Assembly (NCBI GenBank): GCA_017654935.2
Contig: CM065700.1
Span: 49,632,491 to 49,696,490 of the forward strand
Direction of reading: 5' to 3'
From: Phymorhynchus buccinoides
Taxonomy: Eukaryota; Mollusca; Gastropoda; Neogastropoda; Raphitomidae
DNA length: 64,000 nt
Shown: positions 1-62,300 of the stretch, one piece after another
How the letters are laid out: every line of letters begins with the position of its first letter
Position numbering within the stretch: position 1 is the first letter of the stretch
Translations under genes and position numbers: made by a program
The notes under the pieces: generated by a model
The model's database searches: none
What the model was told of the DNA's origin: nothing
The model's input: only the letters and a program-made list of their open reading frames with translations

Positions 1-252
1 CAGCCTGCAGGTAGTTGATATTATCCCTGGTGTTTATCTGTCTGTACATGCAGTCAGCCTGCAGGTAGTTGATATTATCCCTGGTGTTTATCTGTCTGTA
101 CATGCAGTCAGCCTGCAGGTAGTTGATATTATCCCTGGTGTTTATCTGTCTGTACATGCAGTCAGCCTGCAGGTAGTTGATATTATCCCTGGTGTTTATC
201 TGTATATGCAGTCAGCCTGCAGGTGGGCGATAGTTGATTTTATCCCTGGTGT
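1..252. repeat. 54 bp tandem array seeded by the NDUFS8 stop-codon region
   Basis: Units start at 1, 55, 109 and 163, with a diverged one near 213. Each repeats, in the minus direction, the last codons (...CTGCAGGC, then a TAC ATG TAC AGA TAA-like end) and the first 3' UTR bases. The genuine copy continues into exon 6. Units carry a small duplication (GTCTGT) relative to the genuine end. Confidence 0.9.
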
Positions 253-384
253 TTATCTGTACATGTAGTCGGCCTGCAGGTTGGCGGCGATCTCGGCCTC
301 CCATTTGTCTCCATTGCTCAGCAGTTTCTCCTTGTTGTAGAGCAACTCCTCGCGGGTCTCCGTAGAGTATTCAAAGTTGGGACC
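253..384 (-). CDS. NDUFS8: NDUFS8 coding exon 6 (C-terminus and stop)
   Basis: 44 codons: [20 protein letters not shown] through [14 protein letters not shown] and TAA (255-253). The acceptor CCCTCTAG lies at 392-385. The last codons, the stop and the start of the 3' UTR recur in the 54 bp array at 1-252, so the 3' UTR begins as tandem repeat and continues off the window. Confidence 0.97.
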
Positions 385-3300: not shown

Positions 3301-6300
3301 AAGCTGCCATCAATGTTGTGTACAGGATGGGTGGGGATAGTGTTAGAATTGCATATCTATCATCTTGCTTTAGGCTGCCATCATCAATGTTGTGTACAGG
3401 ATGGGTGGGGATAGTGTTAGAATTGCATATCTATCATCTTGCTTTAAGCTGCCATCAATGTTGTGTACAGGATGGGTGGGGATAGTGTTAGAATTGCATA
3501 TCTATCATCTTGCTTTAAGCTGCCATCAATGTTGTGTACAGGATGGGTGGGGATAGTGTTAGAATTGCATATCTATCATCTTGCTTTAGGCTGCCATCAA
3601 TGTTGTGTACAGGATGGGTGGGGATAGTGTTAGAATTGCATATCTATCATCTTGCTTTAAGCTGCCATCAATGTTGTGTACAGGATGGGTGGGGTTAGTG
3701 TTAGAATTGCATATCTATCATCTTGCTTTAAGCTGCCATCAATGTTGGCAGAAATGTTTGATGGAGAAAGACAGGTTAGAGGAAGTTACAAGCACAAAAC
3801 TTCCAGAAGGTGAAGGAACTATTTGCATGAAACACCCCTCGGCATCCCCATGGGGAGATAACTTACTTCAACGATGGCGTCGACAGGGCAGGCCTCCTGG
3901 CAGAAGGTGAGTGAACTATTTGCATGAAACACCCCCCGGTATCCTCACGGGGAGATGAACAACTTACTTCAACGATGGCGTCGACAGGGCAGGCCTCCTG
4001 GCAGAAGGTGAGTGAACTATTTGCATGAAACACCCCCCGGTATCATCACGGGGAGATGAACAACTTACTTCAACGATGGCGTCGACAGGGCAGGCCTCCT
4101 GGCAGAAGGTGAGTGAACTATTTGCATGAAACACCCCCCGGTATCCTCACGGGGAGATGAACAACTTACTTCAACGATGGCGTCGACAGGGCAGGCCTCC
4201 TGGCAGAAGGTGAGTGAACTATTTGCATGAAACACTCCCCGGTATCCTCACGGGGAGATGAACAACTTACTTCAACGATGGCGTCGACAGGGCAGGCCTC
4301 CTGGCAGAAGCCGCAGTAGATGCATTTCGTCATGTCAATGTCATAGCGCGTCGTGCGTCGGCTGCCATCAGCTCGCGGCTCCGCTTCAATCGTGATGGCC
4401 TGAGCAACAGACAGAGAATGCTCACGACGGAAATGCTGATATGGAACAAGACAACCTTGAAAAGAACAAAACAGAATCGTAGCCAACCTTCTGGTGGTAA
4501 CTCCATTCCTTTACATTAGGACTGGAGACCACAAACATTGTGTGCGGAGGAAGCATTTACCCTCATGCACAAGTTCGCACATGATATTCCGATATATTTG
4601 TGTCTTCATTAGTTAAGCCAAACCAGCAAAAGACTCACGCCTTATCTCAAAATTATGACAATCCTCCTCATGATTACCTGTGCGGGGCAGATGGCCTCAC
4701 ACAGTTTGCAGGCGATGCAGCGCTCCTCCCCTGAAGGGTAGCGCCTCAAAGCGTGCTCCCCTCGAAAGCGAGGTGACAGAGGTCCTTTCTCAAAGGGGTA
4801 GTTGATGGTGGCCGGCTCCTTGAATATGTGGCCCAACGTGATGCCCAGACCTGGGAATAATGTAAGATATCATGTTAGTAATGTCCATCATCATCACCAT
4901 CATCATCATCATAACTCAGGGACCCTCTCAAAGGGGTAGTTGAATATGTGGCCCAACGTGATGCCCAGACCTGGGGATAATGTAAGATATGTTAATAATA
5001 TCCATCATCATCATCGCCATCACCATCATCATCATAACTCAGGGACCCTCTCAAAGGGGTAGTTGAATATGTGGCCCAACAAGATGCCCAGACCTGGGGA
5101 TAATGTAAGATATGTTAATAATATCCATCATCGTCAAAATCACCATCATTATCATCATAACTCAGGGTCCCTCTCAAAGGGGTAGTTGAATATGTGGCCC
5201 AACGTGATGCCCAGACCTGGGGATAATGTAAGATATCATGTTAATAATGTCCATCATCGTCATCATCATCATCATCATAACTCAGGGGTAGTTGAATATG
5301 TGGCCCAACGTGATGCCCAGACCTGGGGATAATGTAAGATATCATGTTAATAATGTCCATCATCATCACCATCATCATCATCATCATAACTCAGGGACCC
5401 TCTCAAAGGGGTAGTTGAATATGTGGCCCAACGTGATGCCCAGACCTGGGGATAATGTAAGATATGTTAATAATGTTCATCATCATCACCATCATCATCA
5501 TCACCATAACTCAGGAACCCTCTCAAAGGGGTAGTTGATGGTGGCCGGCTCCTTGAATATGTGGCCCAATGTGATGCCCAGACCTGGGATAATGTAAGAT
5601 ATGTTAATAATGTCCATCATCATCACCATCATCATCATCATCATCATAACTCAGGGTCCCTCTCAAAGGGGTAGTTGATGGTGGCCGGCTCCTTGAATAT
5701 GTGGCCCAATGTGATGCCCAGACCTGGGGATAATGTAAGATATGTTAATAATATCCATCGTCATCACCATCATCATCATCATAACTCAGGGACCCTCTCA
5801 AAGGGGTAGTTGATGGTGGCCGGCTCCTTGAATATGTGGCCCAATGTGATGCCCAGACCTGGGGATAATGTAAGATATGTTAACCCTCTTGTGCCTGACG
5901 CTCTGTGCTCTCAATCACCTCTGAAATCCTAACCCAAGGGACGTCACTCCGTACAAAAGGCGGGGTAGCGTCAGAAAAATAATAAAATAAAATATACCCT
6001 ACCAGATTTTGTGTTTTTTTGTTTTGAATGTGTTGCCGAGATGTCTGTCTGAGTTGCAAAAGGAATTCCAAGATGTTATGGGGATGCATGGCTCCACAAA
6101 AAAAATCAAAATGCCAAAGTGTATTCGCAAACTGCATTCACTAGTCATTCACTGCCTACTTTTGCAGACTGTTGAAGCCTAAGACGACTGAAATGGAAAT
6201 GTAGATCAAAACCATTCACTTACCCTTTCACTTCACGATCTTATAATTCCTATCTTTCACAAAAAAGGGAATTTTCATCGCTGTCATCACTCAGTGGATG

Positions 6301-9300
6301 CAATAACGACTCATCATCCATGATGTAAAAGTCGGGAAAATGCCGATGTCAGTAACACGACTTCAAAAATTCGCATCGATCGAACAAAAACAAGCTCGCT
6401 GCCGAAATAGGTCAGAATACACTCTTTACTCATCACTTCGCGATCTCATAAGTCCCATCTTTCACAAAAATAGGACTATTCATCGCTTTCCTCAGTCAAT
6501 GGACGCCATAACTGTTCGTCATCCATGTTGGAAATATTGCGAAAATGCCGAAGTCGGTCACTAATTTTCAAAAATTCATATCTTTCAAACCAATCGGCCT
6601 AGAAGCCATTGCAAGCAACAGGATGGAAGTGTAATCTATAGCGAAAGCGAGGCTGAAGCGCTCACGTGACTGCCATGTGATAGAAACAAAATGGAAGCGC
6701 CCAAACCGGCCACGTGGAATCCGTACGTTCCCGAACGTTCTAGATGTTTCCGATCCGATTTTTTTTTTAACGTTCACGACCGTTCACCGCACAAGAGAAT
6801 TAATAATGTCCGTCATCATCGTAACTCAGGGACCCTCTCAAAGGGGTAGTTGAATATGTACAGTGGCGTTGCTCCCATGCTGCCCATTCCGAGTCCCAAT
6901 TCACAGCCACACCTCCGCACGTTCAGGTTTCAAGAAACACTTTCAAAAAGATTTCCTCCAGCCGAAGTCGGACTGGCTGGGCCTATTTCTTAGGCGCACA
7001 ACGGCAGCATGACGCATCTGCGCTCATAATTGACAGGAAACTGAGCGATTGAAGAAGAAGATGATAACCGGCGCACACACACACACATACACTTAACATA
7101 ATGTGGGGGAGCAAAGCATCAGTTTATGTCCACAAAAGGCGGTAACTGCTCACCTCTGATGAGCTCGGTCCAGAACACGGTCTGCGACGCTCGGTCCATG
7201 ATGGGCTTCCAGTTCATGTCGGGGTCCGGATTGGCCACTTGCTCTGAAACACAGTGCACGCATTTCTTGATAATTGCTTCCCCAGCTGTTCTGGAAAACA
7301 TGGGTCACAGTTCTGTACATATGTGTATTTATGTATTCCAGCATAGGTTTTCACTTCCGTCTTTTTCCTTCCGTTTGCTCCCTTCGCACAATATTTGCAC
7401 ACAAAAACAACACCAAATCTTGGCAAGAATTTAAGGTGACAGATTTTTTTTGCTGTCCTATCTTCTGGGCCGTACAGTGGCGTTGCTCCCACGCCGCCCA
7501 TTCCGAGTCCCAATTCGCAGCCACACCTCTGCACGTTCAGGTCGCAGAATCCGAAACCAGCAGTCCAAGAGGAGCAAATCTATGTTAGGCCAAGGTGACG
7601 GATTTCACTAAACCAGTCAAACTAAGGTGATGAACACACTTAACATTTGATTATACAGTAAGTCAAATAAAAAATTAAAAAAGATGTTGTTGCTTCTTTG
7701 TTCATTCATTTGCAGCTTACTCTAAATGAAAATCCCCCATTTCTAACACAAGTAGAACTAGAAGTAGAAGCAAAAATTGTGTTGATTTTTTTTTTTTAAA
7801 TCATTAAATCAGGAAAAAGTTCCAACCAAATCTTTGAAGGGAGAACTCAGAACATGGCCTTATGGATGTTAATATTCATCTTAGTACTAATGCTTCAGTT
7901 ACTTTCCTTTAAAAAAAAATTAATTTTTAAAATAAAGTAAAGATGCTAAACACGACATGACAACTCACTGTAATGAGTCCTCTCTTGTCCCGCATAGAGA
8001 GGCCGCAGCACATTCCTCAGCAATGACTGGGCTGTTCACAGAGAGCAAAACAGTTCAGTTTTATAATAATGTGAAAAAAGGTCTGGTTTGGAACAAAAAT
8101 AACATTGATTAAAACAACAGCTATTGTGTTTTGATTTTTGTTAATGAATGAAAATGTCCCACTCCCAATGTCTCACATTCATGGAAAAACAAACATGCTT
8201 TTCCATGTACATTCACATCTTCCTGTTTATTTACAACTGCTAACATAGTCCAATTCCATGTAACCTACAATTTATTACAACCTACAGTGGAAACTCCCTT
8301 ATAAGACCTTCACAAATAATCCAAAGGGAGGTCATTTTAATACATACAAAGAAGGGCAATGTCTCGGAGAAGTAGGTCTTATGTGGGAGGGAGTCTTATA
8401 ATGGGAGGTTCCACTATAGTACACCTAAAGTGAAGATGTTGTGAACAAACCAGTTCAGATCAACACGACCTATGGCCTGATCATTGATCTGCATTATCAT
8501 ATCATAGTACATGTATCCATCTGGCATCTCGCTTCCCCTCCCTTGACCTAAATCTATCACCTTCCACCACTAACTCCTACCGAATAGTGGAATGGGCTTG
8601 TTCACACACGGGACCTGTTTTATGTCTCATCCCAAGGACTTTTTCCCCAACTGATGTCAGATACCCATTTACACCTGGGTGGAGTAAGAAAAATAGGAGT
8701 AGAGTGCCTTTCCCAAGGACACACCACTGCGACCCGAGCTGAATTCGAACCCTCACACAGTCACACTCGCAAACCTGACAAACCCCTGTATATATCAATA
8801 ATTGCCGATAAATGGCAGGTGGACATTACTAGGTAGGTAGGTAGGTAGGTAGGGACAAAACAAGCCGTAAAGCTTTTTCAAACAGTCCTATCTTTTATGA
8901 TTTTTCTGGTAAATGTTTCTTTTCGGTCAAGGTTGACGCGGCATAAATGTTCCTAATAAATTATTATTAGTCATAGCTTCTAAAAACTTCTAAAAATTTT
9001 GGTAATGTATCCAGACGATTTTTAAGCATATTAGTATGAGGTGCACATTTCATGTCAGTAGGCAATTCATTCCACATGTTAGTAATTCTGTTACCAAAAC
9101 AATTTTTTGTTATGTTAGTATTATATCTTTTAACAAAAACTTTACCATAGGCGTTTCTAGTCATATTGTATTGAGGAGATGAAAAGAAATTACTCCAGGA
9201 CAAATCCACATGATTACTGGAAGAAGAAGAAGATTACGAGCCAGTGACGCAACCAACTGAGCCACAGTGGCAGCTGGCTGTCTTTATCTCTCAATCTCTG

Positions 9301-11356: not shown

Positions 11357-12975
11357 GTGTTGACTGCAAAAACTTGCATGCTTCAACATGTTCAAGATTT
11401 AACCGGATTTCTTTCTTGTTCAAATGTCTTTGTACTGGTGAATTCATGTTCATATGTAAGATTAAGACAAAATGTTTCTGTTTCAAACAGATCTAGTGCT
11501 GTAACAAATCTATATCTATGCATTAATGAAGTGGTCAGAAACACCTGGAACCTACGTTTTAATACTGCAAAGTGCAAAGTTCTGCACATACTGACATAGG
11601 AAGAAATAACCCTTGCAATGACTATGTCATGTAAAATGAAGGGGTGAATTCTAATTTAGCAAAGTGTAATGAAAAGAAAGATTTGGGTGTAATTTTTGAC
11701 AGCGATTTAAGTTTTGAGCAGCACATCCAGGGTGCAATTAGAACAAAATGCTAACAACATGCTTGGTATTTATAATAATATAATTAAAACTAGAAGAGTA
11801 TAGACAAGGTGGAAGCAATCCAACGCAGGGCTGCCAGATTTGTCTTAAATAGATCTATACCACAGGACAGCCAGCGTTACCGACATGCTACAGAGGCTCA
11901 GATGGAATCCACTGCAGCAACGCCGACAAGCCACCAAACTCACCATGCTGTTTAAAATACTTAATGGCATGGTAGTGTGAACAGGAGCAAAGTCATACCT
12001 CAGCCAGAGCAGCAACGCAGGGGTCATTCACAACAGCTCATCATCCCTCAGTGTCGGACGCAGTACCGTCAAATCTCCTTTTTTCCACGAACAATCAAGG
12101 AGTGGAATGACCTGCCAACACCCGCAGTGGAGGCCAGAACTCCAGAGAGCTTCGCAGCCGGAGTCTGGAAGTTCCTCAAAGGACACCCGCCTGCTGCGGC
12201 TGGTGGCCCCCTCAGGGGTCATCAGTCTAACAACCAAGCAAAAGCCCCCCCCCCCCTCCCTACCCCCCTCCCCTGCAGATTCCCATCAAGCTAGGCGTTT
12301 TCCTTTTGTCCGTCCTCTCTCCTCTTTCTTTAATCTTCGGCCTCTTGGCCCTTTCTTCCGGCATATGTGGATGAACCTCCCCGGTTCCGTGGCATAATAA
12401 TCAGTGTGTTGATTGTGGCTACGTACTGCGAAGAAGAAGAAAAAGAAGAAAGGACTTTTACTTTTTTAGATAAAAATACATTTCTGTACTTATGTAAAGG
12501 TCCTGTGAGACTTCATATAGAGTATGGTACATGTAATGTCATTTGGCATCCATATCTTAAAAGGCAATCAGTTCTTATAGAAAAGGTTGAAAGAAGAGCA
12601 ACAAAGTTAGTACATTGTATGCAAAACTTAAGTTATAAAGAAAAGTTAGAATATCTTAACATTCCTTCTATAAAAGCAAGAAGAATTCGGGGAGATCTTA
12701 TTCAAATATTTAAGATTTTCAATCATGTGGATGACTTAAGTGTACAAGATTTTTTTCAAAATACCATTTTTTAGTTTTTATTATAACCTAACCAGAAACA
12801 GTATTAATAAAATATTCATAGAATACAGCCATACTAACAAAAGAAAGTTCTGTTTCAGTAACCATGTTGCACCTTTATGGAACTTGTTACCTACTAACAT
12901 CAAGTGTGCACAAGATATTAACACCTTCAAAGATCAAATTGACACTTGGCAATATTTTATTGATATAAAATATGA
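11357..12975 (+). pseudogene. Decayed LINE (family A) RT fragment split by a second LINE
   Basis: The left part reads NTWNLRFNTAKCKVLHI (11543-11595) and NEKKDLGVIFDSDLSFEQHIQ (about 11668-11735). The right part resumes at about 12455 with FLDKNTFLYLCKGPVRLHIEYG, KVERRATKLV and WNLLPTNIKCA to about 12975. The text is interrupted exactly where a different LINE fragment (11797-12453) lies. Stops and frameshifts are present. Confidence 0.8.
11797..12453 (+). pseudogene. LINE (family B) 3' fragment inserted into family A
   Basis: AIQRRAARFVLNRS (about 11817) and, after a frameshift, FFPRTIKEWNDLPTPAVEA and FAAGVWKFLKGHP (12079-12190) mark an RT C-terminus. Its 3' UTR ends CCCGGTTCCGTGGCATAATAATC..GTTGATTGTGGC and a (GAA)n tail at 12430-12453. 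The same 3' end occurs alone at 61793-61899. Confidence 0.75.
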
Positions 12976-13015: not shown

Positions 13016-13441
13016 GTTAGCACAATTTGACCTTGCATGACCTTATACATTTATCAAAACAATGGGACATTCATCGAATCAAAACCCGAATCAGGGCTAT
13101 GTGCAAGTCACACGTCACATGTCCCCATTTCCTGAATCCTGAATAATGCAGCAAAAAAGTGTTAACATATAAATTCCATGTATCTGATGTGATCTAAAAA
13201 CAAAATATTTGCTTGAGAGTTGAGGCTGAAGTTAAGAGTTTGTACATGAGTGTTTGTGTGTGCACGCATTGATTATGTCATGAACTTCTCTGTCCAGTCA
13301 ACTAATTAAGCTACAACCTGTCCTCTCTTCTCACCCCTTCCCCTTCCACCATCACCCACACATCCTAGATTTTCCCTGAGAATCTTTATGATAACCCATT
13401 GTTATGCTGAATTACAGGTGTGTAGCCAGTGTAGAAACAGA
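13016..13441 (+). other. Upstream region of the membrane-protein gene
   Basis: No TATA box is evident. A pyrimidine-rich stretch lies at 13320-13365, and possible acceptors at 13418 and 13440 would fit a 5' UTR exon further upstream. Confidence 0.35.
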
Positions 13442-13537
13442 ATGGCGGACCTGCCCATCGCTGCCATCGTCTGCATCGCTGTTGGTCTCTACCTGTTGGT
13501 GATGATTGGTGTCATTCTGCTGTGCTACTGTCTCAAG
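13442..13537 (+). CDS. Membrane-protein gene exon 1 (start codon and transmembrane helix)
   Basis: ATG at 13442 was chosen because the helix follows at once and AG acceptors at 13418 and 13440 could mark a 5' UTR junction. An in-frame ATG lies further upstream at 13388. 32 codons end CYCLK at donor AAG|GTAGGT. Five further copies of the helix-donor segment follow downstream. Confidence 0.72.
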
Positions 13538-16500
13538 GTAGGTGCCCCTAACCCTAACCCTAACCCTAACCCTAACCCTAACCCCATCATCTGCATCACT
13601 GTTGGTCTCTACCTGTTGGTGATGATTGGTGTCATTCTGCTGTGCTACTGTCTCAAGGTAGGTGCCCCTAACCCTAACCCTAACCCTAACCCTAACCCCA
13701 TCATCTGCATCACTGTTGGTCTCTACCTGTTGGTGATGATTGGTGTCATTCTGCTGTGCTACTGTCTCAAGGTAGGCGCCCCTAACCCTAACCCTAACCC
13801 TAACCCCATCATCTGCATTGCTGTTGGTCTCTACCTGTTGGTGATGATTGGCGTCATTCTGCTGTGCTACTGTCTCAAGGTAGGTGCCCCTAACCCTAAC
13901 CTTAACCCTAACCCTAACCCCATCATCTGCATCGCTGTTGGTCTCTACCTGTTTGTGATGATTGGCGTCATTCTGCTGTGCTACTGTCTCAAGGTAGGTG
14001 CCCCTAACCCTAACCTTAACCCTAACCCTAACCCCATCATCTGCATCGCTGTTGGTCTCTACCTGTTGGTGATGATTGGCATCATTCTGCTGTGCTACTG
14101 TCTCAAGGTAGGCACACTTCTACCATACTGCTGTGTTCCTGTATTGTTTGTAATGTTGTATAATAAATTATTTGCAACAGTATTACTACTATTAGAATAT
14201 CATGGTGCAGCTTAGTCTTTTGTGGATGACTATGACTGTATGAGTATGACTCGGAAACTGGTGGGGGGCGGCATAAATTTGCATTGGCACTAGTTCTGCA
14301 ACCAAAGGGATTGGTTGGCTTTTGGGGAACCTTCCCCAAAGCCGGTGGTCCTCAAATCCCTTTGCCCGAGGGAATGGGGATGTACCCTGGGCAAGGCATC
14401 TCCACTATAAATGAATCTTAGCCCAGCCTGTCAGAATAGCAGCTGCTCCCTCTACTATCTGGCTGTCATAGTCACAAACGACAGACTGAGAAATTGCTCC
14501 CTGATAAATTCAGGTTACCCTCACCAGAGAGTGTGTCATTGCTAGTGCAGCACCACTTTTTGTGTTTTGGGCTTCAGGGTTCATCAATAGAAGTTTATCA
14601 ATGAAGGAACAAAATTCACTGTTGATGTGGTGTAAATGTGCGGGGTCAGGGCTGATGCTCCGGGGAGTCTTAACTGCTGTGTGAAGAAGGAGGGGGCTCA
14701 GTTCACTGTTGATGTGGTGTACATGTGCAGGGTCGGGGCTGATGCTCCGGGGAGTCTTAACTGCTGTGTGAAGAAGGAGGGGGCTCAGTTCACTGTTGAT
14801 GTGGTGTACATGTGCAGGGTCGGGGAGTCTAACTGCTGTATGAAGAAGGAGGGGGCTCAGTTCACTGTTGATGTGGTGTACATGTGCAAGGTCGGGGCCG
14901 GTGCTCTGGGGAGTCTAACTGCTGTGTGAAGAAGGAGGGGGCTCAGTTCACTGTTGATGTGGTGTACATGTGTAGGGTCAGGGCTGATGCTCTGGGGAGT
15001 CTAACTGCTGTGCGAAGAAGGAGGGGGCTCAGTTCACTGTTGATGTGGTGTACATGTGCAGAGTCGGGGAGTCTAACTGCTGTGCGAAGAAGGAGGGGGC
15101 TCAGTTCACTGTTGATGTGGTGTACATGTGCAGGGTCGGGGCCGGTGCTCTGGGGAGTCTAACTGCTGTGCGAAGAAGGAGGGGGCTCAGTCGTGTGAGT
15201 GCTGTCTGGCCTTGGCCGAGGCCTGTAACTGCTGTAAGGGACCCTCACTCAATTCATGCCTCAAGTCATGCTGCCCTGATAAAAAGGTCAGTGTGAGTGA
15301 GAGAGAGAGAGAGGGGGGGGGGGGAGGGGGGGGGGGGGGGGGGGCAGAGAGAGAGAGACAGAGTGTGTGTGTGTGTAATAGTAATAATAGTACAGTAGTA
15401 GTCTCAAGCCCTATTGCTCAAACAAAAAGGTTGACCAGTGTGTAAGAGACAGACAGACAGGGTTTATGTGTGTTTGTGGTTGCTTGCATGCTCATGGCTA
15501 AATACACATACTCATAGGCAGAGTGCTTACACACACCTTTAAGCACACATGCAAGTCTGCCCGCACTGACTCACACACTTACACACACATGCAAGCACAC
15601 ATGCAAGTCTGCCCGCACTGACTCACACACTTACACACACATGCACGCACACATGCAAGTCTGCCCACACTGACTCACACACTTACACACACATGCATGC
15701 ACACACGCACATATATGAAAGGCACACACACACCAAAAGTGTGCTTCAGTCCTTTCATTCTGAACTTCTTTTGTTTCTTGGTGCTCATTTTCACACCAAG
15801 GTGTTTTAGTTTTCAACTGATGTGTTTTATCCTTTCAGATGTCATGTTTAGACATCATCATGTGTTTTATCCTTTCAGATGTCATGTTTAGACATCATCA
15901 TGTGTTTTATCCTTTCAGATGTCATGTTTAGACATCATGTGTTTTATCCTTTCAGATGTCATGTTTAGACATCATCATGTGTTTTATCCTTTCAGATGTC
16001 ATGTTTAGACATCATCATGTGTTTTATCCTTTCAGATGTCATGTTTAGACATCATGTGTTTTATCCTTTCAGATGTCATGTTTAGACATCATGTGTTTTA
16101 TCCTTTCAGATGTCATGTTTAGACATCATGTGTTTTATCCTTTCAGATGTCGTGTTTAGACATCATGTGTTTTATCCTTTCAGATGTCATGTTTAGACAT
16201 CATCATGTGTTTTATCCTTTCAGATGTCATGTTTAGACATCATCATGTGTTTTATCCTTTCAGATGTCTTGTTTAGACATCATCATGTGTTTTATCCTTT
16301 CAGATGTCATGTTTAGACATCATGTGTTTTATCCTTTCAGATGTCATGTTTAGACATGTTTCATCATGTGTTTTATCCTTTCAGATGTCATGTTTAGACA
16401 TCATCATGTGTTTTATCCTTTCAGATGTCATGTTTAGACATCATCATGTGTTTTATCCTTTCAGATGTCATGTTTAGACATCATGTGTTTTATCCTTTCA

Positions 16501-19500
16501 GATGTCATGTTTAGACATCATCATGTGTTTTATCCTTTCAGATGTCGTGTTTAGACATCATGTGTTTTATCCTTTCAGATGTCATGTTTAGACATCATGT
16601 GTTTTATCCTTTCAGATGTCATGTTTAGACATCATCATGTGTTTTATCCTTTCAGATGTCATGTTTAGATCATCATGTGTTTTATCCTTTCAGATGTCAT
16701 GTTTAGACATCATCATGTGTTTTATCCTTTCAGATGTCATGTTTAGACATCATCATGTGTTTTATCCTTTCAGATGTCATGTTTAGACATCATCATGTGT
16801 TCATGTTTAGACACATCATGTGTTTTATCCTTTCAGATGTCATGTTTATAGACATCATCATGTGTTTTATCCTTTCAGATGTCATGTTTAGACATCATCA
16901 TGTGTTTTATCCTTTCAGATGTCATGTTTAGACATCATCATGTGTTTTATCCTTTCAGATGTCATGTTTAGACATCATGTGTTGTATCCTTTCAGATGTC
17001 ATGTTTAGACATCATGTGTTTTATCCTTTCAGATGTCATGTTTAGACATCATCATGTGTTTTATCCTTTCAGATGTCATGTTTAGACACATCATGTGTTT
17101 TATCCTTTCAGATGTCATGTTTAGACATCATGTGTTTTATCCTTTCAGATGTCATGTTTAGACACATCATGTGTTTTATCCTTTCAGATGTCATGTTTAG
17201 ACATCATGTGTTTTATCCTTTCAGATGTCATGTTTATCACATGTGTTTTATGTTTCAGATGTCATGTTTATCCTTTTCAGATGTCATGTTTAGACACATC
17301 ATGTGTTTTATCCTTTAGACATGTTTCATCATGTGTTGTATCCTTTCAGATGTCATGTTTAGACATCATGTGTTTTATCCTTTCAGATGTCATGTTTAGA
17401 CATCATCATGTGACATGTGTTTTATCCTTTCAGATGTCATGTTTACACATCATGTGTTTTATCCTTTCAGATGTCATGTTTAGACATCATCATGTGTTTT
17501 ATCCTTTCAGATGTCATGTTTAGACATCATGTGTTGTATCCTTTCAGATGTCATGTTTAGACATCATGTGTTTTATCCTTTCAGATGTCATGTTTAGACA
17601 TCATCATGTGTTTTATCCTTTCAGATGTCATGTTTAGACATCATGTGTTTTATCCTTTCAGATGTCATGTTTACACATCATGTGTTTTATCCTTTCAGAT
17701 GTCATGTTTAGACATCATGTGTTTTATCCTTTCAGATCAGATGTCATGTTTAGACATCATCATGTGTTTAGACATCATCATGTGTTTTATCCTTTCAGAT
17801 GTCATGTTTAGACATCATGTGTTTTATCCTTTCAGATGTCATGTTTAGACACATCATGTGTTTTATCCTTTCAGATGTCATGTTTAGACATCATCATGTG
17901 TTTTATCCTTTCAGATGTCATGTTTACACATCATGTGTTTTATCCTTTCAGATGTCATGTTTAGATCATCATGTGTTTTATCCTTTCAGATGTCATGTTT
18001 ATGTGTTTTACATGTCATGTGTTGTTTTATCCTTTCAGATGTCATGTTTAGACATCATGTGTTTTATCCTTTCAGATGTCATGTTTAGATGTCACATCAT
18101 GTGTTTTATCCTTTCAGATGTCATGTTTAGACATCATCATGTGTTTTATCCTTTCAGATGTCATGTTTATACATCATGTGTTTTATCCTTTCAGATGTCA
18201 TGTTTAGACATCATCATGTGTTTTATCCTTTCAGATGTCATGTTTAGACATCATGTGTTGTATCCTTTCAGATGTCATGTTTATACATCATGTGTTTTAT
18301 CCTTTCAGATGTCATGTTTAGACATCATGTGTTTTATCCTTTCAGATGTCATGTTTAGACATCATGTGTTTTATCCTTTCAGATGTCATGTTTACACATC
18401 ATGTGTTTTATCCTTTCAGATGTCATGTTTAGACATCATCATGTGTTTTATCCTTTCAGATGTCATGTTTAGACATCATCATGTGTTTTATCCTTTCAGA
18501 TGTCATGTTTAGACATCATGTGTTTTATCCTTTCAGATGTCATGTTTAGACATCATCATGTGTTTTATCCTTTCAGATGTCATGTTTAGACATCATCATG
18601 TGTTTTATCCTTTCAGATGTCATGTTTAGACACATCATGTGTTTTATCCTTTCAGATGTCATGTTTAGACATCATCATGTGTTTTATCCTTTCAGATGTC
18701 ATGTTTAGACATCATCATGTGTTTTATCCTTTCAGATGTCATGTTTAGACATCATGTGTTTTATCCTTTCAGATGTCATGTTTAGACATCATGTGTTTTA
18801 TCCTTTCAGATGTCATGTTTACACATCATGTGTTTTATCCTTTCAGATGTCATGTTTAGACATCATCATGTGTTTTATCCTTTCAGATGTCATGTTTAGA
18901 CATCATCATGTGTTTTATCCTTTCAGATGTCATGTTTAGTCACATCATGTGTTTTATCCTTTCAGATGTCATGTTTAGACATCATCATGTGTTTTATCCT
19001 TTCAGATGTCATGTTTAGACATCATCATGTGTTTTATCCTTTCAGATCATCATGTGTTTTATCCTTTCAGATGTCATGTTTAGACATCATCATGTGTTTT
19101 ATCCTTTCAGATGTCATGTTTAGACACATCATGTGTTTTATCCTTTCAGATGTCATGTTTAGACATCATCATGTGTTTTATCCTTTCAGATGTCATGTTT
19201 AGACATCATGTGTTTTATCCTTTCAGATGTCATGTTTAGACATCATCATGTGTTTTATCCTTTCAGATGTCATGTTTAGACATCATCATGTGTTTTATCC
19301 TTTCAGATGTCATGTTTAGACATCATCATGTGTTTTATCCTTTCAGATGTCATGTTTAGACATCATCATGTGTTTTATCCTTTCAGATGTCATGTTTAGA
19401 CATCATCATGTGTTTTATCCTTTCAGATGTCATGTTTAGACATCATCATGTGTTTTATCCTTTCAGATGTCATGTTTAGACATCATGTGTTTTATCCTTT

Positions 19501-22302
19501 CAGATGTCATGTTTAGACATCATGTGTTTTATCCTTTCAGATGTCATGTTTAGACATCATCATGTGTTTTATCCTTTCAGATGTCGTGTTTAGACATCAT
19601 GTGTTTTATCCTTTCAGATGTCATGTTTAGACATCATGTGTTGTATCCTTTCAGATGTCATGTTTAGACATCATCATGTGTTTTATCCTTTCAGATGTCA
19701 TGTTTAGACATCATGTGTTGTATCCTTTCAGATGTCATGTTTAGACATCATGTGTTTTATCCTTTCAGATGTCATGTTTAGACATCATCATGTGTTTTAT
19801 CCTTTCAGATGTCATGTTTATGTGTTTTACATCATGTGTTTTATCCTTTTTCATGTTTAGACATCATATCCTTTCAGATGTCATGTTTAGACATCATGTG
19901 TTTTATCCTTTCAGATGTCATGTTTAGACATCATGTGTTTTATCCTTTCAGATGTCATGTTTAGACATCATGTGTTTTATCCTTTCAGATGTCATGTTTA
20001 GACATCATGTGTTTTATCCTTTCAGATGTCATGTTTAGACATCATGTGTTTTATCCTTTCAGATGTCATGTTTAGACATCATGTGTTTTATCCTTTCAGA
20101 TGTCATGTTTCATGTGTTTTATCCTTTCATCATCATGTGTTTTATCCTTTCAGATGTCATGTTTAGACATCATGTGTTTTATCCTTTCAGATATCGTGTT
20201 TAGACATCATCATGTGTTTTATCCTTTCAGATGTCATGTTTAGACATCATGTGTTTTATCCTTTCAGATGTCATGTTTAGACATCATGTGTTTTATCCTT
20301 TCAGATGTCATGTTTATGTCATGTTTATACATCACATCATGTGTTGTATCCTTTCAGATGTCATGTTTAGACATCATGTGTTGTATCCTTTCAGATGTCA
20401 TGTTTAGACATCATGTGTTGTATCCTTTCAGATGTCATGTTTAGACATCATCATGTGTTGTATCCTTTCAGATGTCATGTTTAGACATCATGTGTTTTAT
20501 CCTTTCAGATATCGTGTTTAGACATCATGTGTTTTATCCTTTCAGATGTCATGTTTAGACATCATGTGTTTTATCCTTTCAGATGTCATGTTTAGACATC
20601 ATGTGTTGTATCCTTTCAGATGTCATGTTTAGACATCATGTGTTGTATCCTTTCAGATGTCATGTTTAGACATCATCATGTGTTTTATCCTTTCAGATGT
20701 CATGTTTAGACATCATCATGTGTTTTATCCTTTCAGATGTCATGTTTAGACATCATCATGTGTTTTATCCTTTCAGATGTCATGTTTAGACATCATGTGT
20801 TTTATCCTTTCAGATATCGTGTTTAGACATCATCATGTGCCAGTGTTGTGCGTCCGATGGAACGACATTGTGCGATGTGAGTAATTAATGTTGTCTGTGT
20901 GTAGTTCACTGATTTATTGCATATGTGCTGTTCCCTAATTTCTAATTTCGCTTTTTGAAAATCCAATCCAAGCTTCATGTGGCAATGCTGTGTTCACATT
21001 GTTCCATGCTTCACTTTTTGTTCAGTTTCAAAATATCACTCTCTTATCACTTTTTGGAGAAACAGATGTAAATCCTTCTTTCACATTTTTATCCAATCAT
21101 TATTAATAATAATAATTAATAATGCTTATATAGCGCATAATCTTGCAAAGCAACTCAATGCGCTTTTCACTAAATTATTGCCTATGATACATTTTCGAAA
21201 ACAAACAAACTTTTGCTTTGGTTGCATAAACGCGCATATTTTATTTGATCTTTGAGAGTTAGAAAAGTGTGTCCTTTGTTCTATTTCTTCTTTATATTAT
21301 AAAAGAATTGGATAGTTTTTGAAGCTGTAGAATGTGTGTCACTTTAGTGTGCAATGAAAATATGAATAAAGTCTGGGGGGTTTTGTTTTATTATTTTAAG
21401 TTTTCATGTCAATTTTTTTTATACATGACACTATTTAAAATTAGTATCTATTAAACATGAATCGCATACTCCCATTTTACAATATTGTTGTCATCCATTA
21501 TCCATTCACATTTCACTCACATCACTGTTGTTCTATTCACTTGAACACTGTTGCCAGTTGTCTGCATGTAATGATGTTCATCTTTCATTTCTCTCATCAC
21601 GCTTTCTTCTTCCTCATTTCTCCCACATCACTGTTATTCTATTCACTTGAACACTGTTGCCAGTTGTCTGCTGGTAATGATGTTCACCTTCGTCTTTCAT
21701 TTCTCTCATCACGCTTTCTTCTTCCTCATTTCACTCACATCACTGTTATTCTATTCACTTGAACACTGTTGCCAGTTGTCTGCTGGTAATGATGTTCACC
21801 TTCGTCTTTCATTTCTCTCATCACGCTTTCTTCTTCCTCATTTCACTCACATCACTGTTATTCTATTCACTTGAACACTGTTGCCAGTTGTCTGCTGGTA
21901 ATGATGTTCACCTTCGTCTTTCATTTCTCTCATCACGCTTTCTTCTTCCTCATTTCTCTTTTTTTATCTTTCTGGCTCATCCACCCAAAATCAAGAGGAA
22001 CTACATGTAGATCACAAAAGTAGTGTTAAAAAATATCTAAATTCTGTCTTCTGCTGCTGACTGTGTTTTGACATGCGTGTTGATTGAAGGCTTTGTGTTT
22101 TGGTGACAGACGTTGCGAAGTTAATATTGTGCTGTTGTTTGTCTTATTAAGAAAACAATGCATGTGTTCAGCTGTCCTGTTTGGCTTTGGCTTCTTTTTG
22201 CTTTAAATAAATGTTCTTTTTTTGGTCTTGCCACATTTAGCTGTTTTAATTTCTACTTTTGGACTGACAGAAACGCACAAAACACACACACACTCACACA
22301 CA

Positions 22303-35538: not shown

Positions 35539-35668
35539 GTGTCGGGCGGCCACGAGTCGTGTGGGTCTGGCGTATCTAGGTCATTAGGAAGAGAGAGTCC
35601 AGGCATTTTGTTAGAGAGTGAGTGCCGCGCGGCCACGAGTCGTGTGGGTCTGGCATATCTAGGTCATT
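35507..35668 (+). repeat. 79-80 bp direct duplication spanning the stop codon of the membrane-protein gene
   Basis: AGGAAGAGAGAGTCCAGGC...GTTAGAGAGTGAGTG and GGCCACGAGTCGTGTGGGTCTGG recur at about 35507-35585 and 35587-35668. The second copy includes the stop codon context in the 3' UTR. Confidence 0.9.
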
Positions 35669-52305: not shown

Positions 52306-53550
52306 ATCACACACACACACACAAGCATGCACATATGGACACACACACACACACACATACAAGCATGCACATATGGACACACACACACACACACACACAC
52401 ACAAGCATGCACATATGGACACACACACACACATACAAGCATGCACATATGGACACACACACACACACACATACAAGCATGCACATATGGCACACACACA
52501 CACACACATACAAGCATGCACATATGGACACACACACACACATACAAGCATGCACATACACACACACACACATACAAGCATGCACATATGGACACACACA
52601 CACACACACATACAAGCATGCACATATGGACACACACATACAAGCATGCACATATGGCACACACACACACACACATACAAGCATGCACATATGGCACACA
52701 CACACACACACACATACAAGCATGCACATATGGACACACACACACACACACATACAAGCATGCACATATGGCACACACACACATACAAGCATGCACATAT
52801 GGACACACACACACACACACACAAGCATGCACATATGGCACACACACACACACACACACACATACAAGCATGCACATATGGCACACACACACACACACAC
52901 ACACACAAGCATGCACACATATGGCACACACACACACACACACACACACATACAAGCATGCACATATGGCACACACACACACACATACAAGCATGCACAT
53001 ATGGCACACACACACACACACATACAAGCATGCACATATGGCACACACACATACACACAAGCATGCACATATGGACACACACACACACACACAAGCATGC
53101 ACATATGGCACACACACACACACACATACAAGCATGCACATATGGCACACACACACACACACATACAAGCATGCACATATGGACACACACACACACACAC
53201 ACATACAAGCATGCACATATGGACACACACACACACACACACACAAGCATGCACATATGGACACACACACACACACACACACAAGCATGCACATATGGAC
53301 ACACACACACACACACACATACAAGCATGCACATATGGACACACACACACACACACACACAAGCATGCACATATGGACACACACACACACACACATACAA
53401 GCATGCACATATGGACACACACACACACACACACACAAGCATGCACATATGGACACACACATACAAGCATGCACATATGGACACACACACACACACAAGC
53501 ATGCACATATGGACACACACACATACAAGCATGCACATATGGCACACACA
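52306..53550. repeat. (CA)n-based minisatellite with GCATGCACATATGG core, about 33 units
   Basis: The unit is (CA)n + TACAAGCATGCACATATGG(A). Units vary by two-base steps in the CA run. Long alternating purine-pyrimidine favours Z-DNA. All six frames contain long stop-poor stretches; none is coding evidence. Confidence 0.96.
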
Positions 53551-53766: not shown

Positions 53767-54066
53767 TTGTTGTTGTTGTCAAACCCTGGCTTAAAGACTC
53801 CAGGGATCATCCCGACAGCCAAAGCACTTGAACACTATGGTACAAATGCACCAGCTAGGGATGAGAACATGTGTGTGACTGTTTTCGATTACCCCGCCAT
53901 GTGGGCAGCTTTCGGAGGATTTTGGAGACTGATGATGTTATGCTAGGAGCTTGTCACGGCTAAAGACAATCCACGCATAACAATGCACAGCATAACACTT
54001 TGATGTAGCCTTGGTGTTCTAGCCTACGTCAATTGGTCTGACACAGCCTTAAACCAAGGCGAGGTG
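53767..54066 (-). mobile_element. SINE-like element S1, full-length reverse copy
   Basis: (TTG)n at the left (tail) through GACTCCAGGGATCATCCC, CCGCCATGTGGGCAGC, GATGTTATGCTAGGAGCTTG to CAGCCTTAAACCAAGGCG. Confidence 0.82.
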
Positions 54067-54824
54067 TCTGGAGTAAGGAAGGACCTCGTCTCTCACACAC
54101 ACACACCTCTCAGTATTTTTACACGCATTAAAAAAACCTGACATCTCTTCAACACTCTCACTGCAGTAATTGGCCACTGCGGGGGGGGGGGGGAGGGGGG
54201 GGGGGATCACAGACTCAAACCAAACGTCTCCAACAACAAAACAAGTTGCCTGGACCACTGAGCAAAAAGAGCAAACAAATAACCAACATTAGCCTCACTG
54301 GGGCTATCCATCATACAGCAGCAATTATATGTTATCATTTCTACTATAAACATACAGTTTTCTATAAACATACAGTTTTGAGTGCTCTGTGTATTGTCCA
54401 CAATATCATATAGTCATCTAGACTATTTAACGCAATGGCTTAACAAGGGAGCTACACGCTTTCCTCCATCTACACCATTCAACTCACTTCATTCAAAAGT
54501 CGCTCTTAATGGTATTCATCAAAATGTCACCGCCCCATTTCACACCTGACTCCAAGCAAACAAAATCTGTGACATGCCTGCACAAGCATCCAATTTGAAA
54601 TAACCAACATGTATGCACACAAAAAAGAAAAACAAGCACACACACTCACAAATCATACATGTTGATCCACTATCGAACAAATCAGATTCCATTGTAAAAA
54701 TAATAATAATCTAGTGTTTTTTTAGCATCCTCATAACTTTATTTTTTCATTTTTCCTGCCTGTGTTCGCTCTCTCTCTCCCTCCCCCTTCTCTCTCTCAT
54801 TCCCTCCCACCCACCTTTCACTCA
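54067..54824. other. Spacer with G-tract
   Basis: G12-A-G11 at 54181-54205; otherwise AT-rich unique sequence. Contains the weak AATAAA candidate for CLUH. Confidence 0.45.
54738..54743 (-). terminator. Weak candidate CLUH polyadenylation signal
   Basis: TTTATT on the plus strand is AATAAA in the CLUH direction, about 1.4 kb after the stop and beyond the 85-97 bp array. I saw no closer canonical hexamer. If used, the whole 54.8-55.8 kb array would lie in the CLUH 3' UTR. Confidence 0.2.
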
Positions 54825-56106: not shown

Positions 56107-56371
56107 TTAACGCCCCTCCCCCACCATCACTTGGGGAGCAGAGTTGTGCGCCGCCACGTTTCCATTGGGCAACGGAGGGACGACGTCGTCAACATCAAAC
56201 TCCATCTCTGTCCTTTCTGTCTTCTCCTTTTCCTCCATGGCGCCATCTTTCGACGATTCTGGTGATGATGATGACGATGACGCTTCCCCGTCAGGTTTAG
56301 AGTCATCCCCCTTGATGGCGGATGACTGGCGTTTGGACATCTCCTGCCGGAATTTGTCCAGCTCTTCTTGA
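56107..56371 (-). CDS. CLUH: CLUH terminal exon
   Basis: 88 codons including the stop: [18 protein letters not shown], a Ser run, acidic [16 protein letters not shown] and final VGEGR-TAA at 56109-56107. Acceptor CTGTCTCCAG at 56381-56372. A 63 bp array begins only about 8 bp inside the intron, within the polypyrimidine tract. Confidence 0.9.
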
Positions 56372-59300
56372 CTGGAGACAGAACAGAACTGACTCAAATC
56401 ACAACAGGGTCGGTTTAAAACAGGCCAGGGTTGGTTCAAAACAGAACAGGACTGACTCAAATCACAACAGGGTCGGTTTAAAACAGGCCAGGGTTGGTTC
56501 AAAACAGAACAGGACTGACTCAAATCACAACAGGGTCGGCTTAAAACAGGCTAGGATTGGTTCAAAACGGAACAGGACTGACTCAAATCACAACAGGGTC
56601 GGTTTAAAACAGGCCAGGGTTGGTTCAAAGCAGAACAGGGCTGACTCAAATCACAACAGGGCCGGTTAAAAACAGGCCAGGATTGGTTCAAAACAGAACA
56701 GGACTGACTCAAATCATAACAGGGTCAGTTTAAAACAGGCCAGGATTGGTTCAAAACGGAACAACACTCAAATCACAACAGGGTCGGTTAAAAACAGGCC
56801 AGGATTGGTTCAAAACGGAACAGGACTGACTCAAATCACAACAGGGTCAGCTTAAAACAGGCCAGGATTGGTTCAAAACGGAACAAGACTCAAATCACAA
56901 CTGGGTCGGTTAAAAACAGGCCAGGATTGGTTCAAAACGGAACAGGACTGACTCAAATCACAACAGGGTCGGCTTAAAACAGGCCAGGATTGGTTCAAAA
57001 CGGAACAGGACTGACTCGAATCACAACAGGGTCGGTTTAAAACAGGCCAGGATTGGTCAAAACAGAACACTTAGTGATTGGTTCAAAACAGAACAGGATT
57101 AATTCAAATCAGAACAGACTTGGTGATTGGTTCAAAACAGAACAGAATTGATTCAAATCAGATGGCAAATTAAAAAAATCAGAACAGGATTAATTCAAAT
57201 GGAACAAAATTTCCGAGACATATGTAATACAAATTCATAGTGTAATCTGTCCTACATTTATCTACATGTTTCTGCTCATTTCCATCCATTTCCTTCCTTG
57301 TGTTTGTTTCTAGGAACATGGAGAAACACACACACACACACAGATGCACACACCAAACAGACACAATCCCCCCCCCCCCCCACAAAAACAGTCACGCGCA
57401 CACACAAACACACACACACACAGATGCACACACCAAACAGACACAATCCCCCCCCCCCCCACACAAAAACAGTCACGCGCACACACAAACACACACAGAT
57501 GCACACACCAAACAGACACAATCCCCCCCCCCCCACAAAAACAGTCACGCGCACACACAAACACACACAGATGCACACACCAAACAGACACAATCCCCCC
57601 CCCCCACAAAAAGTCACGCGCACACACAAACACACACACACACACACAGATGCACACACACAAACACACACATGACATAAATTACCTGAGCTGTAGAAAG
57701 ACAATGCCGTTGATGACGTTCAGAGTTTCCAGAACACTTTGCAGAGAGGGCGTCTGAATCTGTGAACACACAGTGGAAGTTATCAAATTATCAATTCTGA
57801 TATCACTCACTGCAAAACTGCCACACATATTGCCTCTAGGTGAAAAGAAATTGAAAAACAGCAACAGTATGTTTAGAACCATTTCCTATCAGATCCAGAT
57901 TGAAAAACAGCAACAGTATGTTTAGAACCATTTCCTATCAGATCCAGATTGAAAAACAGCAACAGTATGTTTAGAACCATTTCCTATCAGATCCAGATTG
58001 GAAAAACAGCAACAGTATGTTTAGAACCATTTCCTATCAGATCCAGATTGAAAAACAGCAACAGTATGTTTAGAACCATTTCCTATCAGATCCAGATTGA
58101 AAAACAGCAACAGTATGTTTAGAACCATTTCCTATCAGATCCAGATTGAAAAACAGCAACAGTATGTTTAGAACCATTTCCTATCAGATCCAGATTGAAA
58201 AACAGCAACAGTATGTTTAGAACCATTTCCTATCAGATCCAGATTGAAAAACAGCAACAGTATGTTTAGAACCATTTCCTATCAGATCCAGATTGAAAAA
58301 CAGCAACAGTATGTTTAGAACCATTTCCTATCAGATCCAGATTGAAAAACAGCAACAGTATGTTTAGAACCATTTCCTATCAGATCCAGCAACAGTATGT
58401 TTAGAACCATTTCCTATCAGATCCAGATTGAAAAACAGCAACAGTATGTTTAGAACCATTTCCTATCAGATCCAGATTAGAAAAACAGCAACAGTATGTT
58501 TAGAACCATTTCCTATCAGATCCAGATTGAAAAACAGCAACAGTATGTTTAGAACCATTTCCTATCAGATCCAGATTGAAAAACAGCAACAGTATGTTTA
58601 GAACCATTTCCTATCAGATCCAGATTGAAAAATAGCAACAGTATGTTTAGAACCATTTCCTATCAGATCCAGATTGAAAAACAGCAACAGTATGTTTAGA
58701 ACCATTTCCTATCAGATCCAGATTGAAAAACAGCAACAGTATGTTTAGAACCATTTCCTATCAGATCCAGATTGAAAAACAGCAACAGTATGTTTAGAAC
58801 CATTTCCTATCAGATCCAGATTGAAAAACAGCAACAGTATGTTTAGAACCATTTCCTATCAGATCCAGATTGAAAAACAGCAACAGTATGTTTAGAACCA
58901 TTTCCTATCAGATCCAGATTGAAAAACAGCAACAGTATGTTTAGAACCATTTCCTATCAGATCCAGATTGAAAAACAGCAACAGTATGTTTAGAACCATT
59001 TCCTATCAGATCCAGATTGAAAAACAGCAACAGTATGTTTAGAACCATTTCCTATCAGATCCAGATTGAAAAACAGCAACAGTATGTTTAGAACCATTTC
59101 CTATCAGATCCAGATTGAAAAACAGCAACAGTATGTTTAGAACCATTTCCTATCAGATCCAGATTGAAAAAAGCAACAGTATGTTTAGAACCAACAGATC
59201 CAGATTGAAAAACAGCAACAGTATGTTTAGAACCATTTCCTATCAGATCCAGATTGAAAAACAGCAACAGTATGTTTAGAACCATTTCCTATCAGATCCA

Positions 59301-62300
59301 GATTGAAAAACAGCAACAGTATGTTTAGAACCATTTCCTATCAGATCCAGATTGAAAAACAGCAACAGTATGTTTAGAACCATTTCCTATCAGATCCAGA
59401 TTGAAAAACAGCAACAGTATGTTTAGAACCATTTCCTATCAGATCCAGATTGAAAAACAGCAACAGTATGTTTAGAACCATTTCCTATCAGATCCAGATT
59501 GAAAAACAGCAACAGTATGTTTAGAACCATTTCCTATCAGATCCAGATTGAAAAACAGCAACAGTATGTTTAGAACCATTTCCTATCAGATCCAGATTGA
59601 AAAATAGCAACAGTATGTTTAGAACCATTTCCTATCAGATCCAGATTGAAAAACAGCAACAGTATGTTTAGAACCATTTCCTATCAGATCCAGATTGAAA
59701 AACAGCAACAGTATGTTTAGAACCATTTCCTATCAGATCCAGATTGAAAAACAGCAACAGTATGTTTAGAACCATTTCCTATCAGATCCAGATTGAGTTA
59801 AGATCACAGATTGTTTTTTTTCTGAGAGTCAAGACATAAATAATGAAACACTACGGCGAAATGGACATTCTATGAACTAAACATGGTAACTACAGACGTG
59901 GAATGGTAATGCTCCTGTCTCTCTTATCAATCTCATTCACTTCTTTTTCTACAACACCACAGCTGGCTGAGATATACAGTTTTCATGTGTGTGTGCACAC
60001 GCATGTGTGCACACGCGCGTGTGTGTGTGTGTGTGTAAGAGCATGCATGCATGTGCGTACATGTGAGCATGTGTTGTTCCTGCAGAGGAGGAACAGTGAT
60101 ACCCCTGTCTCCCTTACAGACCTTGTTCCTCTTTCTATGAAGCACCACAGCCTGCTGTCATCAACTGTCATTTCTTTTTACAGACCTTGTTCCTCTTTCT
60201 GTGAAGCACCACAGCCTGCTGTCATCACTGTCATCAACTGTCATTGCTTCTTACAGACCTTGTTCCTCTTTCTGTGAAGCACCACAGCCTGCTGTCATCA
60301 CTGTCATCAACTGTCATTGCTTCTTACAGACCTTGTTCCTCTTTCTGTGAAGCACCACAGCCTGCTGTCATCAACTGTCATTTCTTTTTACAGACCTTGT
60401 TCCTCTTTCTATGAAGCACCACAGCCTGCTGTCATCACTGTCATCAACTGTCATTGCTTCTTACAGACCTTGTTCCTCTTTCTGTGAAGCACCACAGCCT
60501 GCTGTCATCAACTGTCATTTCTTTTTACAGAGCTTGTTCCTCTTTCTATGAAGCACCACAGCCTGCTGTCATCACTGTCATCAACTGTCATTGCTTCTTA
60601 CAGACCTTGTTCCTCTTTCTGTGAAGCACCACAGCCTGCTGTCATCAACTGTCATTTCTTCTTTGTCCATCACTCACACACTCAAAGAGTTTCCTGTCAT
60701 ATGAGAACAGATGCGTCATGCTGCCGTTGTGCGCCTAACTCGGCTAGGTATGTCCCGCTTCGGATGAAGAAAATCTTTGCAAGAATGTCTAGAACAAAGG
60801 CAGAAGAATGTGCCAGTAAGACAGAAAGATAGCAGATGACAGTCAGCACAGCCAAAGAGAGTGACAGACTAGAGGAAGCTACAAGCACAGAACTTCAAGA
60901 AGATGGGGGAACTATTTGCCCAAAAGATTCTACAGTATTCCCACAGGGAAATACAAAAGCTGTGCTAGTCAAGGTACCTGCAGAGGAGGGATGGTGATGC
61001 CCCTGTCCCCTTTGTAGATCTCGTTCATCTTCTTCTGCAGCACCACAGCCTGCTGGGTCAGGTGTTATTTCCCTGTTTGATCATTGTAAAACTGATAGTC
61101 AAGGTACCTGCAGAGGAGGGATGGTGATGCCCCTGTCCCCTTTGTAGATCTCGTTCATCTTCTTCTGCAGCATCACAGCCTGCTGGGTCAGGTGTTATTT
61201 CCCTGTTTGATCATTGTAAAACTGATAGTCAAGGTACCTGCAGAGGAGGGATGGCGATGCCCCTGTCCCCTTTGTAGATCTCGTTCATCTTCTTCTGCAG
61301 CACCACAGCCTGCTGGGTCAGGTGTTATTTCCCTGTTTGATCATTGTAAAACTGATAGTCAAGGTACCTGCAGGGGAGGGATGGTGATGCCCCTGTCCCC
61401 TTTGTAGATCTCGTTCATCTTCTTCTGCAGCACCACAGCCTGCTGGGTCAGGTGTTTGAGGCACTCGGAGCTCTCCTTGGTGCGCTCATGGTCCTCCCCC
61501 AGCTGGAAGGCCAGGAAAAGAATCAACCAGAAAACATGGACAACAATTCAGAGAACAAATGAACCTGAAGAACAACAGTTAAACAAAACGTCAGAAAAAA
61601 GATGGGCTGGAGATTGTGAGTCTGTTACGGCTTAATGGCCCTCGTTTTCCAAGTGGTTTCCAAGGCACCAGTCAACATTCTATTGGCCACTGCAACAACC
61701 ATGTTTTGCTAGAGTGAATGCCCTTGGTAGATGCTTGAGTGCTGACAAAACAAGGGCATAACACTCTCTCTGTTGTTTTATTTCTTCTCAGGCCTTGAGC
61801 CTTTCTTCCGGCAAAAGTGGTTTCGAACCTCCCCGGTTCCGTGGCATAATAATCAATGTGTTGATTGTGGCCACATACAGTCAAGAAGAAGAAGAAGAAT
61901 AACCCCATTTAAGGCCACTAAATGGCTGCCTTTCGCAAGAGTGAATGCCCTTTTCAGTACTGACCAGCAATGGATTCACTCTCTGTCAAGGGCGTTAATA
62001 AGCCTAGTTGCAGTGGCCAAAATACAGTGGAACCTCCCAATTAAGACCTTCCCTATAAGACCTTCCCTATTAAGGCTCCTTCTAAGATGTGACCCAAAAT
62101 ATTTTTGCCAATTTTTTCCCCCTTCATACCCACCTCCCTATAAGACCTTGAATGAATAATCAGCTCAAACAGGTCTTACTAGGGAGGGGTCTTACTAGGG
62201 AGGGGTCTTTCTAGAGAGGGGTCTAACAGGGAGAGGTCTTACTAGGGAGGGGTCTGACAGGGAGGGGTCTTACTAGGGAGGGGTCTAACAGAGGTGGACA

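Follow-up and report, generated by a model that had tools for sequence, protein, structure and literature searches.

Tandem arrays that copy exon edges into introns in the gastropod Phymorhynchus buccinoides: probable mirage-type minisatellites in four neighbouring genes

Tandem arrays whose units span exon-intron boundaries were found in four neighbouring genes of Phymorhynchus buccinoides, where 22 of 73 GT/AG junctions over 124 kb were present in additional copies and 20 of 39 exons had at least one copied splice edge. We regard these arrays as mirage-type minisatellites, with array births concentrated in and near exons, and with the copies apparently tolerated since the exon-proximal splice site is used. 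We give this reading a probability of roughly 0.7.

The window, that is the whole stretch of 64,000 bp that was analysed (C21:49632491-49696490), comes from an assembly of 2.119 Gb; the end of C21 is about 2 Mb away. Arrays found by TRF (unit length 25 bp or more) covered 32,477 of its 64,000 bases (51%), and the region around it consisted of 50-64% array in the joined stretches made up of the window and the flanking pieces L006-L010, L031 and L032. Thirteen coding exons and 21 splice sites were placed in the window. They belong to NDUFS8 (minus strand), to a gene for a cysteine-rich membrane protein (plus strand) and to the 3' part of a gene that we take to be CLUH (minus strand), an assignment backed by Pfam matches to eIF3_p135 and CLU in the upstream exons; gene names other than NDUFS8 are tentative and based in part on Pfam matches. 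A sequence-only reading of the window had described arrays adjacent to exons in these genes, and a TRF array was present at each place that it named. Eight of the 13 exons in the window contained an array border (NDUFS8 exons 4, 5 and 6, membrane-protein exons 1 to 4 and one CLUH exon), and two of the three coding ends were crossed by arrays, namely the stop codons of NDUFS8 and of the membrane-protein gene.

To find copies of splice sites, a 30-base probe (15 exon and 15 intron bases) was taken from each of the 21 sites, and all places within 6 kb that matched it with at most six mismatches were collected. Six of the 21 sites in the window were copied into the adjoining intron, with 3 to 123 extra copies. 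At these six sites the extra copies were on the intron side, and comparison of TRF borders with exon edges indicated that the arrays include 26 to 89 nt of exon sequence. The earlier statement that seven exon edges are the seeds of arrays was therefore borne out for six edges with true splice-site copies, whereas at the seventh, NDUFS8 exon 6, it is the stop region that is copied.

In NDUFS8 (minus strand), the array over the end of exon 6 (1..281) copies the stop-codon region toward the 3' side, extends left of the window into L006 and includes no splice site; 29 nt of the coding part of the exon (253..384) lie within it. Exon 5 (4271..4399), which was matched by PDB chains, contributes 40 nt and its donor to an array of 5.1 units of 101 bp (3804..4310) with four extra donor copies. 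An array with a 123-135-bp unit (4820..5883) includes 31 nt of exon 4 (4678..4850) and its acceptor, which is found in seven extra copies. The repeated piece of exon 5 occurred at only five places in the genome, all of them in the authentic exon or in the array that copies it; introner elements, in contrast, are one sequence present in many genes, and this piece, one of 22 families, does not have that distribution.

The arrays of the membrane-protein gene (plus strand) differ widely in copy number. Exon 1 (13442..13537) provides 74 nt and its donor to an array with a 114-bp unit (13464..14113), which holds five extra copies and CCCTAA spacers. Upstream of exon 2 (15134..15286), an array with a 72-87-bp unit (14615..15191) carries the acceptor and 58 nt of the exon in five extra copies, and the acceptor and 26 nt of exon 3 (20814..20876) are repeated in 123 extra copies within an array with a 37-40-bp unit (15820..20839). 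In exon 4 (coding part 34801..35538) a two-copy duplication without a splice site runs across the stop codon (35503..35668); this stop-region case had been noticed before and was confirmed by TRF. The telomere-like CCCTAA runs (13546-14031) number four to six or more per unit, are partly interrupted and occur in every spacer of the exon-1 array, while CCCTAA runs of at least three repeats were found nowhere outside this donor array in the whole 124 kb. These spacers could be read as the trace of telomeric sequence inserted at a break before the array grew.

Only three relatives of the membrane protein were found (Babylonia areolata, 65% identity; Nucella lapillus, 62%; Littorina saxatilis, 59%). 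When the exons were joined at the exon-proximal sites, the protein differed from these orthologues by at most one residue at the array joins, so that in this case splicing at the proximal site would give the conserved protein. We infer that the proximal site also yields the proper protein in NDUFS8, CLUH and the DRG-like gene described below.

In CLUH (minus strand), the exon at 61368..61502 contributes 89 nt and its donor to an array of 3.8 units of 130 bp (60966..61456) with three extra copies; these exon and array positions correct the ones first given. The same intron holds copies of this exon piece of three ages, those of the array (98% identity), older ones at 60076..60641 (79-82.5%) and the oldest detected at 59882..59969 (74%). 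Copies with less than 87% identity were present at nine of the 39 exons over the 124 kb. Such differences in identity, in this intron and at the nine exons, indicate that duplication recurs or continues, and both repeated births and a single array with distal decay and proximal renewal would give copies of mixed age. At the last CLUH exon (coding part 56107..56371) a near-miss array (56378..57162) begins upstream of the exon, 6 nt from its edge. It had been described as an array at 56380 beginning within an acceptor tract; its start (56378) is indeed within the tract, but neither the exon nor the AG is copied. A further CLUH intron array, at 62171-63299, is complex and consists of GGTCTTACTAGGGAGG-type units and a longer higher-order unit, and a sequence similar to the GGTCTTACTAGGGAGG-type array stands alone at about 8320-8410.

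Repeats of other kinds were also seen in the window. By reading, open frames at 9589-10389 and 12334-12774 resemble the ends of non-LTR retrotransposon reverse transcriptases, and 8880-9210 resembles an inverted partial copy of the former. A dispersed, non-tandem repeat (TTAAAGACTCCAGGGATCATCCC...) has at least three occurrences (53780-54070, 63390-63550 and 23980-24130), and 52308-53497 is an impure CA-rich repeat of 1.2 kb that is open in several frames on both strands.

The analysis was extended by 60 kb of flanking DNA, in which exons were located by Pfam matches and reading. The left flank contained seven consecutive exons of a gene for a DRG-like GTPase (TGS, MMR_HSR1 and MMR_HSR1_Xtn), with six of 14 splice sites copied, one of them 49 times, and the right flank contained further CLUH exons. 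The 22 copied junctions are made up of the six in the window and 16 of 52 in the flanks; by type they are 8 of 36 donors and 14 of 37 acceptors. The nearest copy was 37-158 bp away at 20 of the 22 sites and 415 and 896 bp away at the other two. Some intronic copy was detected by BLAST for 24 of the 39 exons, and the centre of the exon was copied in seven, whereas copies of an entire exon were found for none of the 39 exons in the 124 kb.

Near misses were counted as not copied (the last CLUH exon, the edges C10_1a, E1a and E4a, and L039, L047, L048 and L052 of the myosin set introduced below), and so were incomplete copies that did not pass the 30-base criterion set for all edges (D4d, D5d and E1d, and the donors of myosin L037 and L038). 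The D1 acceptor was suspected of being a chance match, but 27 of its 30 bases were identical on inspection and it was kept as a two-copy case. A separate feature of the left flank is found in L006 at 4330-5067. The end of a DRG-like exon is present there as a diverged copy with a GTGAGC donor, and next to it an 84-bp array repeats that donor; on our reading of this segment, it would be an array seeded by a copied exon edge.

Most of the copied splice sites have kept their signals, as 305 of 313 decoy copies retain the authentic GT or AG. The decoy dinucleotides departed from the consensus of the copies at 7 of 612 positions compared with 97 of 3978 neighbouring intron sites (Fisher P = 0.04, an optimistic value, since copies within one array are not independent). 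The decoys are therefore without sign of purging, and the weak signal in the opposite direction may come from the non-independence of the copies. Slower change of the decoys is what one would expect if the copies had a function, as alternative splice sites, as repeated protein segments or as introns in the making. The open frame through the membrane-protein exon-1 array could be taken in the same sense: at 13310-14215 one frame is open for 301 codons through the entire array, with a transmembrane-like segment repeated. The orthologous proteins of Babylonia, Nucella and Littorina have no such repeats at the joins, however, and the distance to the nearest copy is divisible by three at 8 of the 22 sites, as by chance. 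Together with the optimistic Fisher value, these observations make functional copies very unlikely.

Whether exon edges are involved in arrays more often than by chance depends on the yardstick. With raw array coverage as the null, 10.2-10.5 of the 21 splice sites in the window were expected to be in arrays and six were observed. Array borders gave a different picture, with eight exons in the window holding a border compared with 2.1-2.2 expected; with a border expected in 27% of the exons that are not wholly covered, the binomial P for the eight observed was 0.0095. We did not accept coverage as the sole null, because a growing array increases the number of array positions while the number of authentic splice sites stays the same, and for the same reason a collapsed null, in which each array counts as one founding unit, is the fairer one. 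Under the collapsed null the 22 copied junctions compare with 9.6-12.6 expected from local intron (P between 7.5e-5 and 3.5e-3 in twelve settings). The GC content of exon edges was rejected as the cause, as a GC-matched expectation was 10.8 (P = 6.5e-4), and TRF with rotations gave 13 versus 4.6 for the first 53 edges (P = 0.0002). Copies beside a conserved exon might stay detectable for longer, but this was rejected as the sole cause, since young copies, with at most one mismatch, numbered 17 versus 8.5 expected (P = 0.003) and exact copies 12 versus 7.2 (P = 0.05). A distance table in which copied edges were divided by copy number understates the bins near the edge, and a family-wise comparison was used in its place.

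For the last 20 kb a prediction was fixed beforehand, that about 30% of the edges would be copied if edges seed arrays and about 10% if they do not. The result, 4 of 20 edges (20%), fell between both predictions, and with a local expectation of 4.8 in this very array-rich neighbourhood, where edges were placed partly by eye, there was no local excess. We conclude that there is moderate evidence for an about twofold excess of copying at splice sites in the four neighbouring genes, and that the excess is absent in the last 20 edges. The claim that the arrays are hard to explain by random placement is upheld by the collapsed null and fails under raw coverage and in the replicate.

The twofold excess, together with the GC-matched and rotation counts, is what would be expected if some process tied to exon edges, such as splicing, R-loops or breaks, started duplications there. 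Several results speak against such biased initiation. There was no excess in the 20-edge replicate, exact copies alone gave a smaller excess at the limit of significance, stop-codon ends are crossed as well, and donors are not favoured over acceptors. In the myosin genes described next, moreover, edges (22%) are hardly above near-exon intron (15.6%). Biased initiation at exon edges is on balance doubtful, and the narrower proposal that initiation is specific to splice sites is not supported, in view of the stop-codon ends, the involvement of both donors and acceptors and the near-exon intron value.

Exons elsewhere in the genome were sampled from the myosin-head family, of which the best 20 of 68 exon matches were taken with 230 bp on each side; 36 of the 40 edges were usable (three were not located and one was masked), and they were placed partly by eye. 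In these best 20 of 68, all on other chromosomes, 8 of 36 edges (22%) were copied, in 7 of the 20 exons, and the copied edges lay in four neighbourhoods, on C1 (two), C3 and C29. Of the intron 40-230 bp from these exons, 34% was copied, or 15.6% when collapsed. Random DNA was represented by 20 interior stretches of other chromosomes, each from one arbitrary position and with 36% of the bases masked overall. In 168 pieces of 700 bp from these stretches 8.6% was copied (1.8% collapsed, the collapsed values for random interior DNA being 1.8-2.5%), and arrays occupied 12,605 of 127,114 readable bases (9.9%, compared with the 50-64% of the region around the window), two fifths of this being a single array. 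A cruder count of loci with any copied intron 30-mer gave a weaker contrast (13 of 20 myosin loci versus 56 of 168 random pieces).

Arrays thus appear to be concentrated around exons in this genome, beyond the region of the window. A pure chromosome-end effect was rejected, since affected myosin exons include some on C3 (83 Mb long) at 5.9 Mb and on C1 (106 Mb long) at 80 and 89 Mb. The description of the pattern as pervasive in the sequence-only reading agrees with its recurrence in the 60-kb flank and in the myosin genes. An alternative is that arrays arise evenly over the genome and that the ones spanning exon edges are simply those that can be tolerated. In the window this fits the raw coverage, where fewer splice sites lie in arrays than expected, but the scarcity of arrays in random interior DNA, compared with the 8 of 36 myosin edges, argues against it, and we consider plain overlap unlikely.

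Tandem arrays are error-prone in assemblies generally, and the repeats could in principle have been falsely multiplied. The copies differ from one another, however, with matches of 82-98% within the window's arrays at exon edges, several copy ages are present in one intron, and the pattern recurs on C1, C3, C21 and C29. It is therefore highly improbable that the arrays are an artefact, although the copy numbers themselves may be wrong in the assembly.

The events that would lead to mirage-type arrays can be pictured as follows. A segment of some 40-160 bp straddling an exon edge would be duplicated in tandem, probably by slippage or unequal exchange, and the copies would then be amplified toward the intron, with continuing turnover. 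Each copy would consist of the last or first bases of the exon and a decoy donor or acceptor, in line with the directly observed copies, their differing ages and their intact dinucleotides. The authentic exon-proximal splice site would be used, the decoys would be silent, and the copies would be removed with the intron, leaving the gene intact; in the membrane-protein gene it is the proximal joins that restore the conserved protein. Arrays of whole exons would be absent most simply because they would alter the protein and be selected against. With array births concentrated in and near exons, exon edges would often be involved, and the spread of the arrays over genes and chromosomes is a direct observation.

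The closest known system is the mirage minisatellites of amphioxus. Tandem duplications of intron-exon boundaries are reported there from the Adh3, globin, troponin C and PGBD5 genes, at donors or acceptors, with AG or GT copied in many units of 10-160 bp (PMC3087553, PMC3902484). In these reports, RT-PCR supports normal splicing (PMC3087553), a handful of genes is concerned and the mechanism is left open (PMC3087553, PMC3902484). The snail arrays resemble mirages in units that span the exon-intron boundary (22 of 73 junctions), in the duplication of both donors and acceptors, and in the distance to the nearest copy, for which only 415 and 896 bp are outside the amphioxus range. They differ in extent, since 20 of 39 exons are affected in the four neighbouring genes and 7 of 20 in the myosin sample, in having up to 123 extra copies, in the involvement of stop-codon ends and in the telomere-like spacer of one array. 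The match to amphioxus mirages is one of anatomy, and the assignment is qualified accordingly. A literature search, from which most subscription journals were out of reach, found no report of mirages in gastropods, and for the word mirage in the minisatellite sense it found only PMC3087553 and PMC3902484.

Two further systems are related. Intron gain by tandem duplication, a process reported from potato (PMC4974935), likewise takes its splice signals from a duplicated intron-exon boundary, but there the new intron is spliced, whereas the snail copies appear to remain within the intron. No gained intron was seen in the snail genes in the comparison with orthologous proteins. Variable internal tandem repeats of human segmental-duplication genes, in recent paralogues and in about 7% of the genes there, are minisatellite expansions inside genes that alter gene structure, as in the snail; the accessible portion of that report describes no systematic copying of splice sites (PMC2812944). 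For gastropods, the part of a Conus paper that was available mentions simple repeats in introns only (PMC3862624).

The snail arrays are probably best classed as mirage minisatellites that are very common here, in about half of the exons of four neighbouring genes. With mirages at about a third of the splice sites of these genes, a curiosity becomes a testable system. It opens the questions of how often exon edges seed arrays, of intron growth and origin by tandem duplication, for which it offers many replicates, and of how one acceptor is selected where up to 124 nearly identical ones share an intron. Genomes of this kind also call for caution, since exon edges may be misplaced in them by gene prediction and by the mapping of short reads. 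More tentatively, and with less confidence than in the classification itself, minisatellite birth could be aimed at transcribed exons genome-wide, with about a quarter of splice sites carrying tandem decoys and introns growing largely by copying their own exon edges. If so, exon-aimed births would continually supply alternative sites and new introns, and the spliceosome's choice of the authentic site from many near-identical ones could be studied there as a natural experiment.
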